NCBI RefSeq assembly: GCF_024323335.1
Contig: NC_066581.1
Span: 177,189,330-177,253,329 of the forward strand
Length of the DNA stretch: 64,000 bases
From: Lathyrus oleraceus
Taxonomy: Eukaryota; Streptophyta; Magnoliopsida; Fabales; Fabaceae
Direction of reading: 5' to 3'
The notes beneath the pieces are model-generated. The model was not told where the DNA came from, made no database searches, and saw nothing but the letters and a program-made list of their open reading frames with translations. Below, piece by piece: positions 9,299 to 31,701 of this stretch. Numbering within the stretch: position 1 is the stretch's first letter; every line of letters starts with the position of its first letter. A program made the position numbers and the translations under genes.

Positions 9299-9488
9299 GT
9301 TGTTTCTTAAACCCATTGAACACAATGATCTGACGTCATCTCCCAATTGTGAATTCCCTGTATTCGAAGCGGAAGAAGATGATGTTGAAGGGATTCCTGA
9401 CGAGATTTCCCGGCTTCTTGAGCAAGAAAAGAAGATCACTCAGCTGCATCTCGAGAATCAGCAGAACAGCCAACTGGGGCACACATAA
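9299..9488 (+). pseudogene. Element A remnant of the RT N-terminal extension
   Basis: Reads KPIEHNDLTSSPNCEFPVFE, then an acidic segment and an LLEQEKKITQLHLEN helix. It matches the segment before RT in C (42593-42770) and then hits a stop near 9487 inside an A-run. RT, both RNase H domains and the integrase core, about 2.95 kb in C, are missing from this point. Confidence 0.8.
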
Positions 9489-9593
9489 AAAAAAAAAAAA
9501 AAAAGGAGGAGGGTGCAAAATCAAAAGAAATCCAAATCAAAAGAAAGAAAAAGAAAGAAAGAAACAAAAGAGAAATAGCACCCTCAAAGTCCC
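9484..9593 (+). other. Purine-rich filler at the RT-integrase deletion junction
   Basis: About 110 bp, almost all A and G with a long A-run (9486-9503) and AAAGA/GAAA repeats. It replaces the ~2.95 kb that C has between 42770 and 45715. Nothing coding. It may be filler made when the deletion formed. Confidence 0.75.
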
Positions 9594-9932
9594 AAGTTGA
9601 CTGATGCTGAATGGATTCAGAGTCACTACGACCAAGTGAATCTGATCGAAAGGAAGAGATCAACTGCCATGTGTCATGGTCAGTCATATCAGCAGAGAGT
9701 GAAAAAGCATTCAACAAGAAGGTCAAGCCTCGTGTGTTCCGAGAAGGTGACCTTGTGCTCAAGAAAGTCTTGTCTTTCGTGCCCGATTCCAGGGGCAAGT
9801 GAACTCCAAGCTATGAATGTCCATATGTTATCAAGAGAGCCTTTTCAGGCGGTGCTTTGACACTTACAACAATGGATGAAGAAGTTCACTCGTCCTACGA
9901 ATCCCGATGCAGTCAAGAAATACTTCGCTTAA
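9594..9932 (+). pseudogene. Element A integrase C-terminal remnant
   Basis: Reads TDAEWIQSHYDQVNLIERKR, AMCHGQSYQQRV and, after a one-base frame change near 9710, VKPRVFREGDLVLKKVLSF. It matches the last ~110 residues of integrase in C (45718-46053), downstream of the catalytic core. A TGA near 9800 and a later indel near 9880 break it again. It ends with a TAA at 9930, where C's integrase also ends. The HHCC and D,D-E parts are absent. Confidence 0.88.
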
Positions 9933-22194: not shown

Positions 22195-23110
22195 TGTTCA
22201 GACCGAGGCGGTATCCAGACCGAAGTGGCATTAAGGCCAGTTTCCGATTTCCAGATCGAAGAAGTTCTCAACAATCAGGACGAAGGACTTGTGGTGTTCA
22301 GACCAGTTCCCGGTATCCAGACCGAAGTGGCATTCAGGCCAGTGTTCCCGGTATCCAGACCGAAGTGGCATTCTGGCCAGTTTTCCCGGTATTCAGACCG
22401 AAGTGGCATTCAGGCCAGTTTTCCCGGTATCCAGACCGAAGTGGCATTCAGGCCAGTTTTCCCGGTATCCAGACCGAAGTGGCGTTCAGGCCAGAGTTCC
22501 CGGTATCCAGACCGAAGTGGCGTTCAGGCCAGAGTTCCCGGTATCCAGACCGAAGTGGCGTTCAGGCCAGGGTTCCCGGTATCCAGACCGAAGTGGCATT
22601 CAGGCCAGTTTTCCCGGTATCCAGACCGAAGTGGCATTCAAGCCAGTCTTTCCCGATTTTCAGATCGAAGAAGTTCCCGGTATCCAGACCGAAGTGGTAT
22701 TCAGGCCAGTTTTCCCGGTATCCAGACCGAAGTGGCATTCAGGCCAGTTTTCCCGGTATCCAAACCGAAGTGGCGTCCAGGCCAGTTCCCGGTATCCAGA
22801 CCGAAGTGGCGTTCAGGCCAGTTCCCGGTATCCAGACCGAAGTGGCATTCAGGCCAGTTTTCCCGGTATCCAGACCGAAGTGGCGTTCAGGCCAGTTTTC
22901 CCGGTATCCAGACCGAAGTGGCATTCAGGCCAGTTTTCCCGTGGCATTCAGGCCAGTTTTCCCGGTATCCAGACCGAAGTGGCGTTCAGGCCAGTTTTCC
23001 CGGTATCCAGACCGAAGTGGCGTTCAGGCCAGTTCCCGGTATCCAGACCGAAGTGGCATTCAGGCCAGTTTTTCCGATATCCAGATCAAAGTGGTGTTCA
23101 GACCAGATTT
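22195..23110 (+). repeat. 38-bp tandem array in element B 3' UTR
   Basis: Roughly 22 units of CGGTATCCAGACCGAAGTGG followed by 'cattcaggccagttttcc'. The full unit is 38 bp (22387 to 22425, for example), with 36-bp variants. Two decayed units contain 'cagatcgaagaag'. 38 is 2 modulo 3, so three forward frames stay open over nearly the whole array (290-360 codons). This is repeat structure, not coding evidence. Confidence 0.94.
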
Positions 23111-23429
23111 CCGGTGATCAGACCAACATTGATACTCTCATATTTCGATGCTTAGTGTTCAGACTAATGTGCGGCTATCAGGCCATGGGTATTCCTGTGT
23201 TACCATTTATTTTGGTATCCAGGTCAATTTTCTGTTTCAGTACTCAGGCCGATTTTCACCGTACCAGACGGATTCTTCTTTTGGGATTGCTTCTTTGTCG
23301 ATTCTGACAGGTATGGTTAATTATTTCATAGGGATTCAGGATCAAAATCCGGGTCTTCTTAGTATTTAACCATCTTCCACAATGATCATATGAAGAACGT
23401 CTTGCTTCACATTCTCTAGTTGAAGACGC

Positions 23430-23444: not shown

Positions 23445-23849
23445 TGTCATACCCTTATTTTGGTCCTGAATTTTTCATGTTTGTTTGGCCTGCTTGGCCT
23501 AACCTAACTTTGGTTTTATATGAGGATTGGTTTTGATCCAAAGTCATGGTGTTGTGATTATGGATACATCTATGGTCTGGGTCATCTGAACAACCAAGTT
23601 TCTTGTGTTTCCAGCCACTTGCCAGTCATGTTATTGGTTCATGGATACTATGCCAAAACCCTAACCTTACGGTCTTATTTCATGGTTTTGTTCATACACA
23701 TTATCAGTCAAGTTATTTTCTTTTCAAGAGTCAAACATCCAAGTTATGATTAAACCAATTGTGAAAACCAACTTCAAACCATTTTATTAATCCATTTCAA
23801 TTTTATTTCATTACATTTGATTCCATACAAAAAATACACAAAAAATTGA

Positions 23850-24075
23850 CACTTTTGACCAATTGTTGACTTTGGTCAACAGTTGACTTTTTGGTCAACT
23901 TTGACCAAAGTCAACCCAAATTCATTAAACCCTATATTTCACCATGATCATCAATACATTGTCCATTTACAAAGAAAATACCAAAAAATAAAGTTTTGAC
24001 CTATTTTTGACTTTGGTCAACAGTTGTCTTTTTGGTCAACTTTGACCAAAGTCAACCTCTCCATTTGTTGACCAT
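23850..24075 (+). promoter_or_regulatory. Palindromic W-box (TTGAC) cluster in U3 of element B
   Basis: Two ~75-bp blocks (about 23848-23925 and 23995-24075) each contain about seven TTGACY/RGTCAA words, many arranged as palindromes such as TTGACTTTGGTCAA and GGTCAACTTTGACC. TTGACY is the established WRKY-factor binding core in plants. Such density in a U3 region suggests stress- or defence-responsive transcription, by inference only. The block is missing from A, where the cassette begins earlier. Confidence 0.65.
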
Positions 24076-24145
24076 CAAAAACCTAATCTAACCCATTTGG
24101 CTTTGATGCTTCATCCAAAGGTTTTGATTTGATATACTTTTGTTT

Positions 24146-24199
24146 GGTTTCTTCATTTTTTAAGTAATTTGGCTCATGTTCAATTTCATGTCCACCATG
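24146..24199 (+). repeat. Left copy of the imperfect direct repeat flanking B's cassette
   Basis: The block starting GGTTTCTTCATTTTTTAAGT, with 'ggctcatgttcaatttcatg' further on, is about 80% similar by eye over ~50 bp to 27411-27465. The two copies bracket the gene-fragment cassette, as if LTR sequence was duplicated when the cassette was acquired. Confidence 0.6.
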
Positions 24200-24652
24200 T
24201 TATATGTGTTGCTGCACTTCCAATCCTAACTCCATCTGGCCAAACATGTCCTGCAACCATATAAACATGGCCTGAGATACCTTGAAGTACACAAAGAATC
24301 CAGCAATAAGTATTCCCCCATAGATGTACGTTTGAGAAGAGTGCACGGGGTACTTGTACTCAATTTTGCAGCATTTCATATTTTCCCTCTCGCTGGTCAA
24401 AACATGGTCAACGTATTGCTGGGTGAACATGCTGCTCTGCAGAATATCTGAACTGTTCAAAAAGGCATCATTTAAACGATGATCATATAATAATGAAGAC
24501 ATACCAACAAGATGCTCTTCAAGGCCGTCAAGGGGGGTTTTCAGATACTCTGCTGCAAAAGTTTGGACGGTCTCTGATGTTTCACGAATTTTCCGAAGTA
24601 CAGAATCCACACGAGCATATATCGAGTTCCTCAATGCAACATCACGGAGCAT
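24200..24652 (-). pseudogene. Captured fragment of an unrecognised gene (single membrane segment)
   Basis: An open minus-strand frame of about 150 codons reads RNSIYARVDSVLRKIRETSE, then GLEEHLVGMSSLLYDHRL, and near the end a hydrophobic run YIYGGILIAGFFVYFKV that looks like one membrane segment. It has normal, non-repetitive protein character, unlike neighbouring LTR sequence, and no intron is apparent. I do not recognise the family. It may belong with the next two fragments, which lie in N-to-C order on the same strand. Confidence 0.55.
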
Positions 24653-24660
24653 TTGACTGA

Positions 24661-24985
24661 CACGAGACGTATTTGAAAATGGTCCAAATGGGTGACAACC
24701 GGCTGCCCAAAGTCAATTCACAACGTGTCTTTCATGTGCATGTGAAGCCTTCTCATATGGTGCACTTAAACCACCTACCACTGAAGCAAGGCCAGCCAAT
24801 ATATGACGCTGTGCTTGAAATGGGACGGCATGCCTTTTATGTGTTTCAGAAACATAACTCAAAGGAATCTTTTCATTCTGATGCTCAAGCACAATTACAA
24901 CGTCATTGCTTGTCCACACCATACTTTCGTCCTCCATCATGAGATTTGGATCCACATCAGCCAATGATGGCACGAAAACAGGAAC
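24661..24985 (-). pseudogene. Captured fragment of an unrecognised gene
   Basis: The minus strand reads PSLADVDPNLMMEDESMVWT, then VVIVLEHQNEKIPLSYVSET and HILAGLASVVGGLSAPYEKA. The composition is protein-like and free of stops over about 86 codons. Family not recognised. It is joined at about 24660 to the preceding fragment with a frame change. Confidence 0.5.
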
Positions 24986-25059
24986 TACTCTTGTTCCAAA
25001 AGTTGTTTGAATATCTTCCTTGCTTCTTTACATTTTTTCTCTTTTTCTTGCTATGTTTC

Positions 25060-25250
25060 ATGTTATATGATGACCAGATAGGCTTATGCTTAAGTATTGA
25101 ATCAGTTGACCCCTCAGACTCATCCATCCAATTTGGCGGAAGAAATGATTACTTGAAAGAGATGGGTCAGCCATTTCAAGCAATCCAGCAGCAAGCACAC
25201 CGGCATCCTGCCCAACAATCCAAAAACAGTTCAGAAAAAAAAAAGGCATA
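25060..25250 (-). pseudogene. Captured fragment of an unrecognised gene
   Basis: The minus strand reads FWIVGQDAGVLAAGLLEMAD, then FFRQIGWMSLRGQLIQYLS. It is protein-like but only about 60 codons and I do not recognise it. A T-rich stretch at 25020-25060 separates it from the fragment to its left and could be intron remnant. Confidence 0.42.
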
Positions 25251-25316
25251 CAGTTGAAGGGTCAAGCCAAATAATTAACCACAAGTCATACAAACAATAA
25301 CAACACATGAGGTTAT

Positions 25317-26106
25317 GCTACCGAACAACTTGCCGTCTACACCGGATCAACAGTTGGGGGTTTGCTCAATGCTACATTTGGAAATGCAACTGAAATGATT
25401 ATATCAATTTATGCCTTGAAAAGCGATATGATTAGGGTTGTTCAGCAATCTTTACTTGGTTCCATCTTGTCTAATATGCTTCTAGTTCTTGGATGTGCAT
25501 TCTTTACTGGTGGGATTGTTCACTGTCAAAAACTTCAGGTTTTCAATAAGGCAGCTGCTGTTGTCAATTCCGGCTTGCTGCTCATGGCTGTAATGGGAAT
25601 ACTGTTTCCTGCTGTGCTTCATTTTACTCACTCAGAAGTTCATCTTGGGAAGTCAGTCTTATCCTTATCCAGATTTAGCAGCTGCATAATGCTACTGGCC
25701 TATGCAAGCTACCCTTTCTTTCAACTTAGAAGTCAACAGAATTTTTATACTCCAGTTGACCAGGAAGTAGATACAAGCGAAAACACTGACGAGGAGGAAG
25801 AATTTGAGTTAACTAAGTGGGAAGCGATAATCTGGCTGGCTATTTTGACAGTATGGGTATCAGTATTGTCTGGACACTTTGTGGATGCCATAGAGGGAGC
25901 ATCTGAATCATTGAATATGTCAGTGGCCTTTATTAGTGTCATCTTGCTTCCAATAGTAGGAAATGCTGCAGAGCATGCGAGTGCTATCATGTTTGCCGTA
26001 GAAGACAAGCTAGATATCACAATTGGAGTTGCTGTTGGATCATCAACCCAGATATCCATGTTTGTGATCCCTTTCTGTGTGGTTGTTGGGTGGTGCAAGG
26101 GAAAAG
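25317..26106 (+). pseudogene. Captured CAX2/CAX5-type vacuolar cation/proton exchanger fragment
   Basis: About 260 uninterrupted codons. The first cation-exchange repeat reads GGLLNATFGNATEMIISIYA, followed by SLLGSILSNMLLVLGC, an acidic loop (DTSENTDEEEEFELTKWEA) and the second repeat VILLPIVGNAAEHASAIMFA then [14 protein letters not shown]. Both GNATE and GNAAEHA exchange motifs are intact. In the full protein these line the Ca2+/metal path across the tonoplast. The N-terminal ~100 and C-terminal ~100 residues expected for the family are missing. Plant CAX genes have many introns, but none is seen here, so the source was probably spliced mRNA. It ends where a minus-strand myosin fragment begins. 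Confidence 0.92.
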
Positions 26107-26787
26107 ACCGGACACGAAAGAGCAACTTGAAGAAGATAATAGATTACAATGTTCCACAACAATATAATCACAATTTTTGTCCAAAAAGGCATCTGTATGA
26201 TATGTGACCTTTCCAGCATAATGAGAAACTATAAAATCTGTTTGTGAAAACTTTTCCTTTTCCAACCTAGGGTGAGACCGGAAATGCTGAAACAACTTAG
26301 TAGAGAATGTTTCATGTGTTGATTTTGGAAACATGCAAGCTTCATCCAACAGAGCAATGACACCAATGGGTTTCTTCTCGATCAAATCTAGAACATCTTG
26401 GTTGTCCACAAATTCAATAATTGCTCAAAACTATTATTCCTAAAGCACTCAAAACCATAAATATCCAAAAACTCCAATTTGCATCTGGGAATTGATATCT
26501 TGTCCAACAGATCTGTTGATCTTATCAACAAGCCGATCAAATAAACGAGCATAAACTGTTTTTGCCAAAGTATCCCGACCAGCAACTGCAGCATTACAAT
26601 CAAGGGCCTCGATAATATTTCCTTCTCGAGCCTGTATTGATCGAGTACACAATGTTGCCAGCAGTAGGTCGACATCACACATGAAAAGATCAGCAGCCGT
26701 CTCCATGTGAAATCTTGATTTTTTATCCTCAATTACTGATGAGTCGTGCTCTTTTCCAGGAGAAAATTCAACATTTCCCAAGCGCAA
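26100..26787 (-). pseudogene. Captured class XI myosin motor-domain fragment
   Basis: The minus strand reads NVEFSPGKEHDSSVI, AADLFMCDVDLLLATLCTRS, ALDCNAAVAGRDTLAKTVYA, DKINRSVGQDINSQMQIGV, DIYGFE, then [36 protein letters not shown] and [17 protein letters not shown]. This is the central motor domain of a plant class XI myosin, the actin-based organelle transporter. An internal deletion of roughly 40 codons near 26410-26425, with a frame change, removes the segment after FEQ. Myosin XI genes have dozens of introns, but none is visible, so a spliced source is likely. It meets the CAX fragment head-on at about 26100 across a short shared 'gggaaaag'. Confidence 0.9.
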
Positions 26788-26789
26788 AA

Positions 26790-27410
26790 TTTTTTATCCT
26801 CTATTACTAATGGTGCCAAGTCGGCTGTAGGCTCCTCAACTGTAAGGCCTCCGTTTCCTCTTGTGGTTCCTAATGATGGAAACCAATCTCAATTATGGAA
26901 ACAGGATCATCAAATTGCAGATCAATCCAATCATCCACCTCAGCAGTTTAGGAATGTGTATAACAATCACAATACTCATTTTCAGCCTTATCCACCAGCA
27001 TCAGCTCCTGGTCACACTTCCCAAGTGTTCTCTGGAAGTTCTCATACTCGAGACAATACTCTTAGCCAGCAACAGCAAGGAGTTGTTTCATCTAGACACA
27101 TGTCAAATTTTGTGACACCTAGTCAAAGTGGACAGGTACCTGCATCCCCCCATTTCAGTCATCAGCATCAAGCTGAGGTTCCCCCCAATTCTCAGAAAGG
27201 ATTTGGTGTGGTGCCGGGAAGTGATGCCTCTGTCTTATACAATTCTCAGGCTTTCCAACAACCTAATAGTAAACCCCAGTCCTTCCAGGAGCCCAATAAC
27301 TCTATTGCCTTATCTAGTCAAGCTAGCAGTACCAATCCTCAGCATCAACCTGCCATGCTAAACAGACCACAATCTAAATCATCCAACAACCATGTTGGTT
27401 GTGTTTTCCC
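26790..27410 (+). pseudogene. Captured fragment of a Q/S/P-rich protein gene, unrecognised
   Basis: About 205 open codons read SSITNGAKSAVGSSTVRPPF, then a long low-complexity Q/N/S/H/P-rich stretch (QQFRNVYNNHNTHFQPYPP, QAFQQPNSKPQSFQEPN). This resembles disordered regions of plant nuclear or RNA-related proteins, but I cannot assign a family. It starts at the junction with the myosin fragment (about 26788) and ends at the right flanking direct repeat. Confidence 0.6.
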
Positions 27411-27465
27411 TTGTTTCTTCATTTCCAAGTAACTTAGCTCATTTTCATATTCATGACCATTATAC
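27411..27465 (+). repeat. Right copy of the imperfect direct repeat flanking B's cassette
   Basis: TTGTTTCTTCATTTCCAAGT and the following bases match 24146-24199 at about 80% over ~50 bp. Ordinary LTR-like sequence follows. Confidence 0.6.
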
Positions 27466-28032
27466 CATGACTTGGATCCCTTGCCTTGACAACCAACCTT
27501 CACCTTGCTGAACTGGTCCTGCATTCATCAATAACCAAATACCCTAATCACATGATCAAACATGGTACATACATGATTGATTTGGCAAATCAATGCACAT
27601 GGATTTTGAACTCACCTCGACACACCTTGTACTAGCATCCTGTCATCATGGTCCTGCAGCTGCCAAATCAAAACTTGAATTCCATAAGGTCATGGCGTGA
27701 TGACTGAACTTAGAGCAAATGATTTGGAGCAATTCCATTTTGAACAAACTTGCACCTCCAAAGCCATTGAACCTCAACCAAACCAACTGAGTTTTCTAAA
27801 AAAATTCACTGCAGTAAAAAGTGGAGAATTACTCAGAGCAGTAAAATTCAAAATCCAGAAATTCCCAAATTGGAATTAAAACAAAAACAGAGAGGAATGC
27901 TCAGATGCTCAGATTACCTGTCTCAAATCCATACATCAAAGGGGTCAATCCAGTTTCTGAACATCAAAAGTGCTTTGCAGAGTTGCTCTTCTGGATTACC
28001 AAAGGCACCTTTGAAACCCTAATTCACATAAA

Positions 28033-28040
28033 TATAAAAG
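28033..28040 (+). promoter_or_regulatory. TATA box in element B LTR
   Basis: TATAAAAG followed by 'gagagaaatcagtaagag'. It sits after the CTGCAGTAA repeats and 'gaaaccctaa', as in A. Candidate core promoter. It places the whole gene cassette in U3. Confidence 0.6.
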
Positions 28041-28582
28041 GAGAGAAATCAGTAAGAGAGAAGAGGCGATTTTGAAGAGCACAACAGAGAAAATTGGAGG
28101 CGAAAATCTCAACCGAAACCCTAAAGTCCCAAAATCGAATACCTGGATTGGGAGGCCAACTTCTTCACGCCTTTCATCGCCGCCGTGACACTTTGTGAGA
28201 ATTCTCCCTTTTTTTTCCTTTTATCATTTTCGTGTGTTTGTTGATAGAGACTTTACTGAAATGCGATTAAGGGGTTTTGGGTGTGAGTGAAATTGAGAGA
28301 GACGCGACTGTTGAGTCATGAGAGACGCAGTGTTGAGAGAGACGGAAGCGGCTACGTTGAGAGGGAGAGATTTCTCTGAGCTTGAGGGGGTTCATGAGGT
28401 TGAGGACGATGGCGATGAATCATTTTCTTTTTTTCCTTTTTTTAATTTTTCTTTTATTATTTAATTTAATTTGTTTTTAATACAAAAACCATAAAAAATG
28501 TTTATCTTGTTCTTAAATATTTTTATTTTTTTAGCCCGGTTCATATATTTAACTTAGTATCTCAGTAGCAGATAATGATGAG

Positions 28583-28645
28583 TGGCCTGGTGGAGAAGGG
28601 TAGTGTTCATATTCTTGAGTGGGGTGGGTTCAATACTCATGTGTG
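28583..28645 (+). other. tRNA-like segment in element B LTR
   Basis: A-box-like TGGCCTGGTGG (28583-28593) and B-box-like GGTTCAATAC (28627-28636) with a 7-base TTCAATA loop and a weaker T-stem (one or two G-T pairs). Same spacing and position as 4236-4300. Confidence 0.55.
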
Positions 28646-29974
28646 ACACCTTTTGCTTTTGATTTTATTTTTCTTTTAGCATTTTTTATCCTTTTAGTAT
28701 TTTGTTAATATCTTTTTTTTTATGTCTATTATAATTTCATTTGTTAGTAAATGCATAGTTCAAAAGCCATTTTTTCAAACTATAAAAATCATACTTTCTC
28801 GATTTAACATCGAGCCCATTTTTTACCCCCTTGTAAGTCGATTGCTTTTTAAGCATCGCCGTCGACCTCACATAGCTTACTCTTGGGCTTTCTTACAATG
28901 AGCCGGTTCCTTTGCACTTACACTCATACATTGTTTAATGCTTTATTATTTCATTCTTTGATTATTTGATTCGATTATATACTTGTTTATATCTTAACTG
29001 TTTGATTAACTGTGGCCTATTTGTATGGTGTATGAGGCATATACTTATATTGCTTGATTGCCATGTCAACCCCCATTCATAACAAATGTATCCCTCTCCC
29101 ATGAAATGTATAATATGTATTCTTTCATTCTTTATTCATCTGTTAATACAAGAATTAAAAGGAACATTCGATAACCATTTCAAAACAAGATCAAAACCTC
29201 GATCCAACGTCGAGTAATCATTTTTCCAAACCTAACAGAACCAGCACGTATTCATCCTTTTGTAAGTCGATTGCTTTATGCATCGCCATCAACCTTGTAA
29301 GTCGATTGCTTCATGCATCGCCATCTACCCTTTTCCCCAACACTTCTCCTTGCTCCATTCGTCGATTCTTGTTCCGATTAGGTAGCACCCATTAGATAGA
29401 ACCTTTTGTATGATAACATAAGTAGGATTCCCATATCCTTTTGTATGATAACATAGGTAGAATTCCCATATTCTTTGCATGCTAACATTAGGTAGATATT
29501 CCCATTTGTAAATCCTAAACACTTAAGTACACATTGCATGACAACTCTAGGGCAGAGCTTCCCCATTTCTTTTAGACCTTTCCGAGCGTCTCCGATCTTG
29601 TGGCATGTAGTCTGTTCTATTGCAAAGAGGTAACTGCCTAAGACTCGATTCAGCGAGCTGCGACACCTACTGCTAGGACGCGAACACATTGCCCACTCTC
29701 CTTTGACACAACTGGTGTCCTCCTTTTGTAAGTCCATGTTCAAATGGCAACCCCTATGTAGGGGAACTACATCGCCCTGATCCTTGTTCCAGACGAGGTA
29801 TGTAGGCAGGTGGTCGTGCGAGACCACTCCGGGCACCTTTCTTTTTTCTTTTTGTGTGTGCTTGACAGTTATAGGCTCGAGTTCCCGACTCCCTATTAAC
29901 TTGTTTGGTTGTTGTGTGCTTGGAAGCTGATGTAAGTCCATCAAGTGGCATTCGGGTTCCAGTGTGGTTTTGTT

Positions 29975-30580
29975 GGGTTCGGATGCTGATGTAAGTCCAG
30001 TGATTGGAGTCGGGCTCCACGTTTGCCCCCTTTGTGTTTGTTGGGTTCGGATGCTGATGTAAGTCCAGTGATTGGCAGTCGGGCTCCACGTTTGCCCCCT
30101 TTGTGTTTGTTGGGTTCGGATGCTGATGTAAGTCCAGTGATTGGCAGTCGGGCTCCACGTTTGCCCCTTTGTGTGTGTTTGGTTCGGATGCTGATGTAAG
30201 TCCAGTGATTGGCAGTCGGGCTCCACGTTTTCCCCTTTGTGTTTGTTGGGTTCGGATGCTGATGTAAGTCCAGTGATTGGCAGTCGGGCTCCACGTTTGC
30301 CCCCTTTGTGTTTGTTGGGTTCGGATGCTGATGTAAGTCCAGTGATTGGCAGTCGGGCTCCACGTTTGCCCCTTTGTGTGTGTTTGGTTCGGATGCTTAT
30401 GTAAGTCCAGTGATTGGCAGTCGGGCTCCACGTTTGCCCCTTTGTGTGTGTTTGGTTCGGATGCTGATGTAAGTCCAGTGATTGGCAGTCGGGCTCCACG
30501 TTTTCCCCTTTTGTGTGTGTTTGGTTCGGATGCTGATGTAAGTCCAGTGATTGGCAGTCAGGCTCCACGTTTGCCTTTGC
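29975..30580 (+). repeat. 68-bp tandem array, about nine copies, in LTR B
   Basis: Nine units of GGTTCGGATGCTGATGTAAG (period ~66-70) against three in A. The array creates a minus-strand frame of over 400 codons at 29378-30694, which is repeat-derived. Confidence 0.92.
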
Positions 30581-30603
30581 CTGTGTTTGTTTGTGTGCGT
30601 GTA

Positions 30604-30965
30604 GCCGAACTACGGCAACTCTGATTCTCATGTTCAGATGAGATACGTAGGCACAAGATGCGATGTCTTGCCGAGTTTGACTAACGACTAACAACTAATC
30701 CTTGTTTGCTTCCGCCCTTGTTGCGATCCTTTCTCTCGCCCTCGTTGCGATCGAGACTTTCCTTTTCTCTTGCCCTAGTTGCAATCGAGACTTTTGTTCC
30801 CGTAGTTAGTTGAACTACGTTTTGCTCTGATTCTCATTCCAGATGAGATACGTAGGCATAAGACGCGATGTCTTAGCGAGCACACTTATCCTTAACCCTT
30901 AGGTAACCGAGCTACGAAGACTCTGATTCTCATATTCAGATGAGATACGTATGCAGTGGATGCGA
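30604..30965 (+). promoter_or_regulatory. Three hairpin + TACGTAGGC modules (LTR B)
   Basis: Stems TCTCAT/ATGAGA at 30626-30643, 30832-30848 and 30928-30945. Loops are gttcag, tccag and attcag, so loops differ from A (gttcag, tcccg, aatcag) while stems are unchanged. Each is followed by TACGTAGGC or TACGTATGC. Confidence 0.7.
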
Positions 30966-31061
30966 CATCCGTGCGAGTCATTTTCTTTGACCCTTTCTCT
31001 TTTAGTAAATAGTACATTAGATAAACACACACCCTTTAGACAAGAACAACAAGAGTGGATC

Positions 31062-31077
31062 CCGTAGAGTACTACGG
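31062..31077 (+). promoter_or_regulatory. AGTA-loop hairpin (LTR B)
   Basis: CCGTAG-AGTA-CTACGG followed by GGGGTGCTAATACCTTCC, as in A. Confidence 0.72.
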
Positions 31078-31219
31078 ATGCGTAGGGGTGCTAATACCTT
31101 CCCTTCGCATAATCGACTCCCGAACCCAAGATTTGGTTGCGAGACCTTGTCTTTTCCTTTCCTTTCTCCGGTTTACTTCGAGCGTTTCCTTTCCCTCCTT
31201 TGGGATAAATAACGCACGG

Positions 31220-31229
31220 TGGCGACTCT
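31220..31229 (+). promoter_or_regulatory. Primer-site-like decamer in U5 (LTR B)
   Basis: TGGCGACTCT lies 61 bp before the LTR end, at the same place as in A. Confidence 0.7.
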
Positions 31230-31290
31230 TCTGTCTTTTCTTTCTCGCCGGTTGTCTTTTCGCACCTCTGTATTTTTTCAGGCTGCGACA

Positions 31291-31701
31291 CTGATCTAAA
31301 ATCTAGGAAACTAACAACTAAGCTACAATTAATGAACCTGGAAAATAATCTATTTGTTAGCTCCTTAATAAGTGGAGATTAGTTTAACTTGTTACAACCT
31401 TTAATTTAGGAAATACAAGTACATGATCAACAAACTGGAACAATGTAACAGATAATGTCCAAAACAGGATTGAGACATCTTGCTGATATCTGTGTAGGAA
31501 AACAACAGAAGTGAATGATAAGGTGCACATAACTAGGTGTCCCTCCATTCTAGGATGACATAGAAGGAGAGGTCGTGACACTGTGAAAAGGTGCACATTA
31601 GTACAGAGTGTAATAACTGTCTTGCTGTAATAGGTACAATGTTAGATCAGATGTCATGACTTGAAGTAGAACATCTGAATACTGACTACGCCAGAATTTC
31701 A
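31291..31701. other. Spacer between elements B and C
   Basis: 411 bp resembling neither adjacent LTR. It begins right after B's terminal CA and stops where C's truncated LTR begins. A 'tgttagatcagatgtcatgac' stretch near 31643 might be the start of a truncated copia-type LTR. I am unsure. No gene seen. Confidence 0.55.

Follow-up and report, generated by a model that had tools for sequence, protein, structure and literature searches.

Element B, a complete long terminal repeat (LTR) retrotransposon of pea (Lathyrus oleraceus), carries pieces of four host genes inside its LTRs, and at least three of these pieces were copied from spliced templates. The 3' LTR of the element lies within the window analysed here, a stretch of 64,000 nucleotides (nt) at C3:177189330-177253329 of a 3.8-Gb assembly, and the comparison with donor genes was run within the same genome. 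We consider it very probable that the cargo arose because spliced host transcripts were captured repeatedly in a single LTR pocket, through template switching by reverse transcriptase (RT) combined with swaps between element RNAs.

Element B is bounded on both outer sides by the target-site duplication (TSD) CTGAT. Its 5' LTR is located outside the window, at C3:177175219 (L013:720-8564), and the two 7.85-kb LTRs share 99.643% identity across 7,848 columns (23 mismatches, four gap openings). The host-gene cargo is contained entirely within the LTR, is carried by both LTRs and consists of pieces of DUF7906 (minus strand), CAX (plus), myosin (minus) and FPA (plus). The features of the cassette, whose limits overlap wherever joined partners share bases, are the following.

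23445..31290, plus strand: 3' LTR of element B, 7,846 bp, with the TSD CTGAT at 31291-31295
23445..24301, plus strand: LTR left flank, common to family members without B's cargo; joined to DUF7906 at 24285-24301
24285..25197, minus strand: DUF7906 fragment, spliced, six introns gone, with a 129-nt in-frame deletion at CCTyG and TGA in place of TGG
25193..25306, plus strand: LTR piece between DUF7906 and CAX, splice-acceptor-like on the minus strand, not a DUF7906 intron
25309..26107, plus strand: CAX exchanger fragment, spliced, seven introns gone, frame open; Pfam Na_Ca_ex 4.7e-34
26097..26107, no strand: CAX-myosin junction, the source sequences side by side on the shared GGGAAAAGA
26097..26791, minus strand: myosin motor fragment, spliced, six introns gone, with a 103-nt deletion at 26418/26419 and small indels
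26789..26812, minus strand: 24-nt myosin stretch present for the second time, at the myosin-FPA junction; its first copy is at 26718-26741 (22/24)
26796..27358, plus strand: C-terminal fragment of FPA (flowering time control protein), 563 nt, one exon in the source
27350..28132, plus strand: LTR right flank, common to L060/L061; joined to FPA on CTGyCATGC
28033..28040, plus strand: TATAAAAG, candidate LTR promoter box, read directly in the sequence

The host-derived stretch covers 24285-27358, not the whole of 24146-27465 that a preliminary description of this DNA had assigned to the cargo. The roughly 260 uninterrupted plus-strand CAX codons reported there are borne out, as 264 codons at 25309-26107 align gap-free to the spliced source within a 298-codon open frame; the identity follows from Pfam and PDB relatives, and close legume matches are named vacuolar cation/proton exchanger 2-like. 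The minus-strand myosin segment is indeed a motor domain by Pfam, PDB relatives and its source gene, and we take it to be class XI, but it is not continuous: 103 nt of the message have been lost, and small indels and frameshifts interrupt the rest. What had been described as four unrecognised protein-like pieces proves to be two genes plus LTR sequence. The first, DUF7906, is identified by PF25483 in all 120 matches listed (382 found), and the second by the name FPA carried by its legume protein matches (42 matches). PDB searches with DUF7906 and FPA gave no informative match, and Rfam gave none up to E 0.1. The DUF7906 piece is broken into several open frames by the TGA and frameshifts, so that with myosin two of the four pieces are broken.

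Parts of the LTR around the cargo are widespread. The stretches 25193-25306 and 27378-27465 recur across many repeats, often as pairs; the former has at least 40 matches (best 40 of 104 candidates scored), many of them paired on one contig, while 27350-27377 was seen outside B in L060/L061 only. The piece at 25197-25310, with its pyrimidine tract and TTGGGCAG, was considered as a retained DUF7906 intron and rejected, since the donor's intron at this place is another one and many repeats contain the same piece.

Donors for all four pieces are present in the same assembly, at approximately 2-3% nucleotide divergence from the cargo. The search of the pea genome gave 54 matches among the best 40 of 449 candidates scored, so that all counts are lower bounds, with source pieces matching at E = 1e-275 to 1e-9, above chance. 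The donors of DUF7906 (C4:49020711-49023213), CAX (C5:652362694-652365236) and myosin (C6:21707905-21710668) are recovered exon by exon and that of FPA (C7:457939026-457939588) as a single block of 97.7% identity. A separate search for a closer CAX donor (10 matches, 6/6 candidates) found none; the next copies are 74-76% identical.

Six scorable introns of DUF7906, seven of CAX and six of myosin fall within the captured spans. Alignment to the fetched source genes shows all 19 to be absent exactly at GT-AG sites. Of these, 15 (six in CAX, five in myosin, four in DUF7906) come from one scoring and the remaining four, at CAX 26066, myosin 26430 and DUF7906 24416 and 24526, from another, which also reproduced the 15 apart from the CAX join at 26012; that join is GT-AG with no mismatch in the other scoring. 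One further myosin intron lies inside the 103-nt deletion and is unscorable. The DUF7906, CAX and myosin pieces were thus copied from spliced templates. This agrees with the earlier proposal of mRNA templates, based on CAX and myosin being intron-rich at source and intronless here, for which 13 of 13 scored introns in these two genes are absent; a naturally intronless source is found for FPA only. Indels in gene models proved an uneven guide to introns, being right for the CAX join at 25550 and wrong at DUF7906 Q465/N466, a point at which the pea gene lacks an intron. Published gene structures agree with intron-rich CAX and myosin donors: the accessible text of the respective papers gives 12 exons for AtCAX2, 5 and 6 (PMC8348036) and 38-52 exons for maize class XI myosin genes (PMC3935558), and describes class XI myosin gene structures as completely conserved in plants (PMC3850447).

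The cassette is a mosaic whose modules are shared with sister elements. The DUF7906 piece, with the same six joins, occurs in at least four other LTRs (L014/L015 on C5, L016/L017 on C4) belonging to at least two elements, none of which carries CAX, myosin or FPA. The 129-nt deletion string is exact in three of these four LTRs and present with at most four mismatches in all of them, and all read TGG where both B LTRs read TGA. The CAX-myosin-FPA combination was found in B's two LTRs only, among the best 40 of 449 candidates plus the CAX search. Six LTRs without B's cargo (L019-L024, picked from 28 listed rows matching the left flank only) match 24100-24301 at 93.6-97.5% and then diverge. A further LTR on C6, L018, holds a spliced myosin piece with end points unlike B's; it differs from the source at 4 of 331 sites, B at 9 of 331, and one change is common to both. 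DUF7906 was probably captured earlier than the rest of the cargo. Assembly of all four genes in a single reverse-transcription event would fit their similar divergence from the donors, yet it is improbable, because the DUF7906 module and its LTR flank occur without the other three genes in L014-L017, and the different right-hand sequence and intact TGG of these LTRs argue against their being deletions of a B-like parent.

The right flank of the cassette, which starts at 27350, shares 96.7% identity across 787 columns with L060, one of the paired LTRs L060/L061 on C6. To the left of this shared flank, L060:1-1469 contains pieces of other genes: Ribophorin II (Pfam 4e-19), a TAF2-like gene (0.0055 and 0.00016, both under the curated cut-off) and a third gene without a name. 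Their counterparts are loci on C3, C4 and C7, matched in six, five and three pieces of exon size. Part of the third gene is also found as one block, at 93%, at C2:65767994 and C2:65796589, 28.6 kb apart; this pair is perhaps another element with a capture of that gene, and the same C2 region also holds the 25193-25306 LTR piece. Separately, the LTR stretch L016:2705-3620 is present at 12 places including its own, at 97-100% and many of them paired; the VPLAWCNKAMKNGDVFLVGYDLVEKF part of gene model P0162 seems to be encoded there, and the stretch is possibly an older captured gene.

Four of the joins (LTR/DUF7906, DUF7906/LTR, CAX/myosin and FPA/LTR) show exact or near homology of 6-14 nt between the partners. 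At the first, the sequence is AAGTGCACAATGAA in LTRs without B's cargo and AAGTACACAACGAA in the DUF7906 source (12/14 equal), and at the second the 6-nt AAGCAC is common to both sides. CAX and myosin meet at 26097-26107 on the 9-nt GGGAAAAGA that both sources contain, which confirms the junction on a short shared sequence that had been placed near 26100. The FPA/LTR join combines CTGTCATGC with CTGCCATGC (8/9). The myosin/FPA join is complex, with a 24-nt myosin stretch copied again just before FPA (22/24); its local alignment score of 20 compares with a maximum of 14 in 500 mononucleotide shuffles. Within DUF7906, 129 nt of spliced message were lost between CCTTG and CCTCG, and the deletion ends at most 3 nt from an exon join. 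Exon skipping was rejected for the 43-residue gap of DUF7906 and the 35-residue gap of myosin, as neither spans exon border to exon border in the sources. Also rejected was the reading of the 66% flank repeat (24138-24260 and 27404-27528) as a duplication made by capture, because its left and right copies match different LTR types: close matches to the former are found in L014/L019-type LTRs and to the latter in L060/L062-type LTRs.

Ready-made processed pseudogenes (LINE-type retrocopies), inserted serially into the LTR with no switching during element replication, would likewise be intronless, and contiguous copies of two of the L060 genes, at 78-89%, do exist elsewhere. Such an origin is nevertheless very unlikely. 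All four B pieces are internal fragments joined to one another or to LTR sequence, the partner homology at four joins speaks against serial insertion, and in sister elements the same LTR pocket contains fragments of other genes; poly(A) was not seen at the inspected joins, and no search aimed at separate TSDs was made. That a Pack-MULE or Helitron took up the pieces at the DNA level and afterwards inserted into the LTR has next to no probability, even though such elements often carry host gene pieces (PMC13317346, accessible text) and a 26-nt inverted pair (23541-23566 and 27448-27473, 77% complementary) encloses the cargo, since exact intron removal refutes it for the pieces of three of the four genes, the arms of the enclosing pair are about 0.7 kb and 0.1 kb away from the cargo borders, and none of 23 inverted-repeat pairs (at least 14 nt, 23446-28100) sits at those borders, Helitron ends not having been searched for.

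We infer that host mRNAs were copied together with RNA of the Ogre-like element family. RT would have left the LTR template, probably in U3, at short homologies, moved onto spliced host messages and copied portions of them, and, after jumping again, returned to LTR sequence. If TATAAAAG is the promoter box, its position suggests that the cargo lies in U3. DUF7906, probably the first capture, would have spread with its element. A later switch involving two element RNAs, the right-hand one of L060 type and the left-hand one of the DUF7906-bearing L014 type, may then have picked up FPA, myosin and CAX between the two templates to produce B. Normal replication would duplicate this cargo into both LTRs, where it is found because the capture lies inside an LTR. 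Template switching accounts for the spliced templates, the homology at joins, the internal jumps, the re-copying, the presence in both LTRs and the mosaics of LTR types.

Relative to the element, the pieces of CAX, FPA and L060 have sense orientation (for the third L060 gene as judged only from its open frame), whereas DUF7906 and both myosin pieces, in B and in L018, are antisense. Sense pieces could result from switches during RNA copying in minus-strand synthesis. For the antisense pieces we infer either a switch to mRNA in plus-strand synthesis or the use of first-strand cDNA as template. The preliminary description's proposal of template switching by RT is therefore supported, with the change that the cassette is a mosaic. 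Switching between sense RNAs does not suffice for its alternating orientation.

Differences from the donors amount to 12 in 200 codons plus one stop for DUF7906, 23 in 264 for CAX, 10 in 186 for myosin and 13 in 187 for FPA, in comparisons that left out stretches with indels. Nonsynonymous and synonymous divergence are 1.5% and 7.7% in CAX (9 versus 14 differences; Fisher p 8e-5), 1.1% and 5.1% in DUF7906 (p 0.008), 1.6% and 2.4% in myosin (p 0.47) and 2.3% and 2.4% in FPA (10 versus 3 differences; p 1.0). At an assumed rate of 1.3e-8 per site and year, the divergence of B's LTRs corresponds to roughly 0.1 million years, the cargo being older. Gene model P0121, KIW84_032130, joins B's CAX and FPA pieces and is one residue off the window copy; it is the annotation of a retrotransposon chimaera and not evidence of expression.

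Several observations weigh against capture by template switching as set out above. The four pieces of B alternate strictly in orientation (- + - +), a pattern not produced by switching between sense RNAs alone. Comparison of the sequences at the LTR/CAX join revealed no clear microhomology, and the internal jump in myosin, with its loss of 103 nt, has almost none. The FPA donor is a single exon across 563 nt and is uninformative on introns. The exon-sized blocks in which the L060 captures match their sources may reflect spliced templates, and two of these pieces also occur elsewhere as uninterrupted copies of lower similarity, Ribophorin II at 78% and the TAF2-like gene at 87-89%. Constraint on the sources explains part of the synonymous excess in CAX and DUF7906, and that of CAX is not fully explained. 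Three stretches of B's internal region gave RT/RNase H matches spread over three frames and the C-terminal part of an integrase, and the integrase core was not found in them, so that B probably depended on an enzyme from other elements.

We refer to B tentatively as an Ogre-like Ty3 element. The primer site GCTGGCGACTCTGCTGGGGA follows its 5' LTR, and the reverse complement of TGGCGACTCTGCTGGGGA, as read from the sequence, ends in CCA. Pea Ogre elements are giant Ty3 elements of several subfamilies with a primer site complementary to tRNA-Arg, according to the accessible text of PMC2206039. The element neighbouring B has the domain order RVT_1, RNaseH, with rve downstream. A third element occupies 31702-53748; its long repeats, 97% alike over 4,666 columns, enclose domains of RT, RNase H and integrase. 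Tandem repeats of 38 bp are present at 22209-23124, in the internal region immediately upstream of B's 3' LTR.

Element A is nested within element B at 350-21155, with the TSD ATGGG. It is without the core of RT, RNase H and integrase, and the flanking parts adjoin at 9479-9594. Its LTR has protein-like pieces at 889-1612, the LTR position corresponding to that of B's cargo. They presumably resemble a plant G3BP-type RNA-binding protein; none of their 10 open frames had a Pfam match. Contiguous genome copies of these pieces are 90-97% identical, and no exon-by-exon donor was seen among the best 40 of 234 candidates.

Capture of host genes by LTR elements is known from Bs1 and from surveys of maize, rice and sorghum, and, in the accessible text of these sources, Bs1 of maize resembles B in carrying segments of several host genes, three in its case (PMC13317346), while the surveyed captures are host gene pieces within LTR elements and spread by them, as in B (PMC2774510, PMC3726574). 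B differs from Bs1, whose pieces are internal, in that its own pieces lie inside the LTRs, alternate in orientation and form modules common to sister elements. The maize survey counted 425 elements with gene fragments, none with more than one standard nuclear gene under its conditions, as far as its accessible text goes (PMC2774510); in contrast, B's LTR contains four genes and L060 pieces of three. BARE-2 and Veju are described, in the accessible part of PMC13317346, as having gained and inherited foreign sequence by abnormal template switching, in the LTR for BARE-2; the source was another retrotransposon for BARE-2 and is given as unknown for Veju, whereas the source for B was spliced host messages with identified donors. 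The listings and passages of open-licence papers that were searched, those of PMC2206039 included, gave no account of genes captured within the LTRs of Ogre elements.

Element B is a case in which a plant retrotransposon took up transcripts of several genes and a single genome still preserves the donors, the joins and the intermediate steps; the site of capture within the element is apparent as well. How LTR elements acquire host genes thereby becomes testable through the number of captures per LTR and the switch points, and sense and antisense inserts can be compared as records of minus- and plus-strand synthesis. A warning for annotation also follows, since models such as KIW84_032130 are retrotransposon chimaeras. 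We regard it as quite possible, if short of probable, that in this Ogre-like family the LTR pocket repeatedly captures spliced transcripts in both orientations and that template switching swaps the resulting modules between elements. Each burst of transposition would then build new multi-gene chimaeras beside the promoter of the element itself, and some of these, the annotated CAX-FPA model being an example, may be expressed or may give rise to antisense RNA directed at the donor genes.

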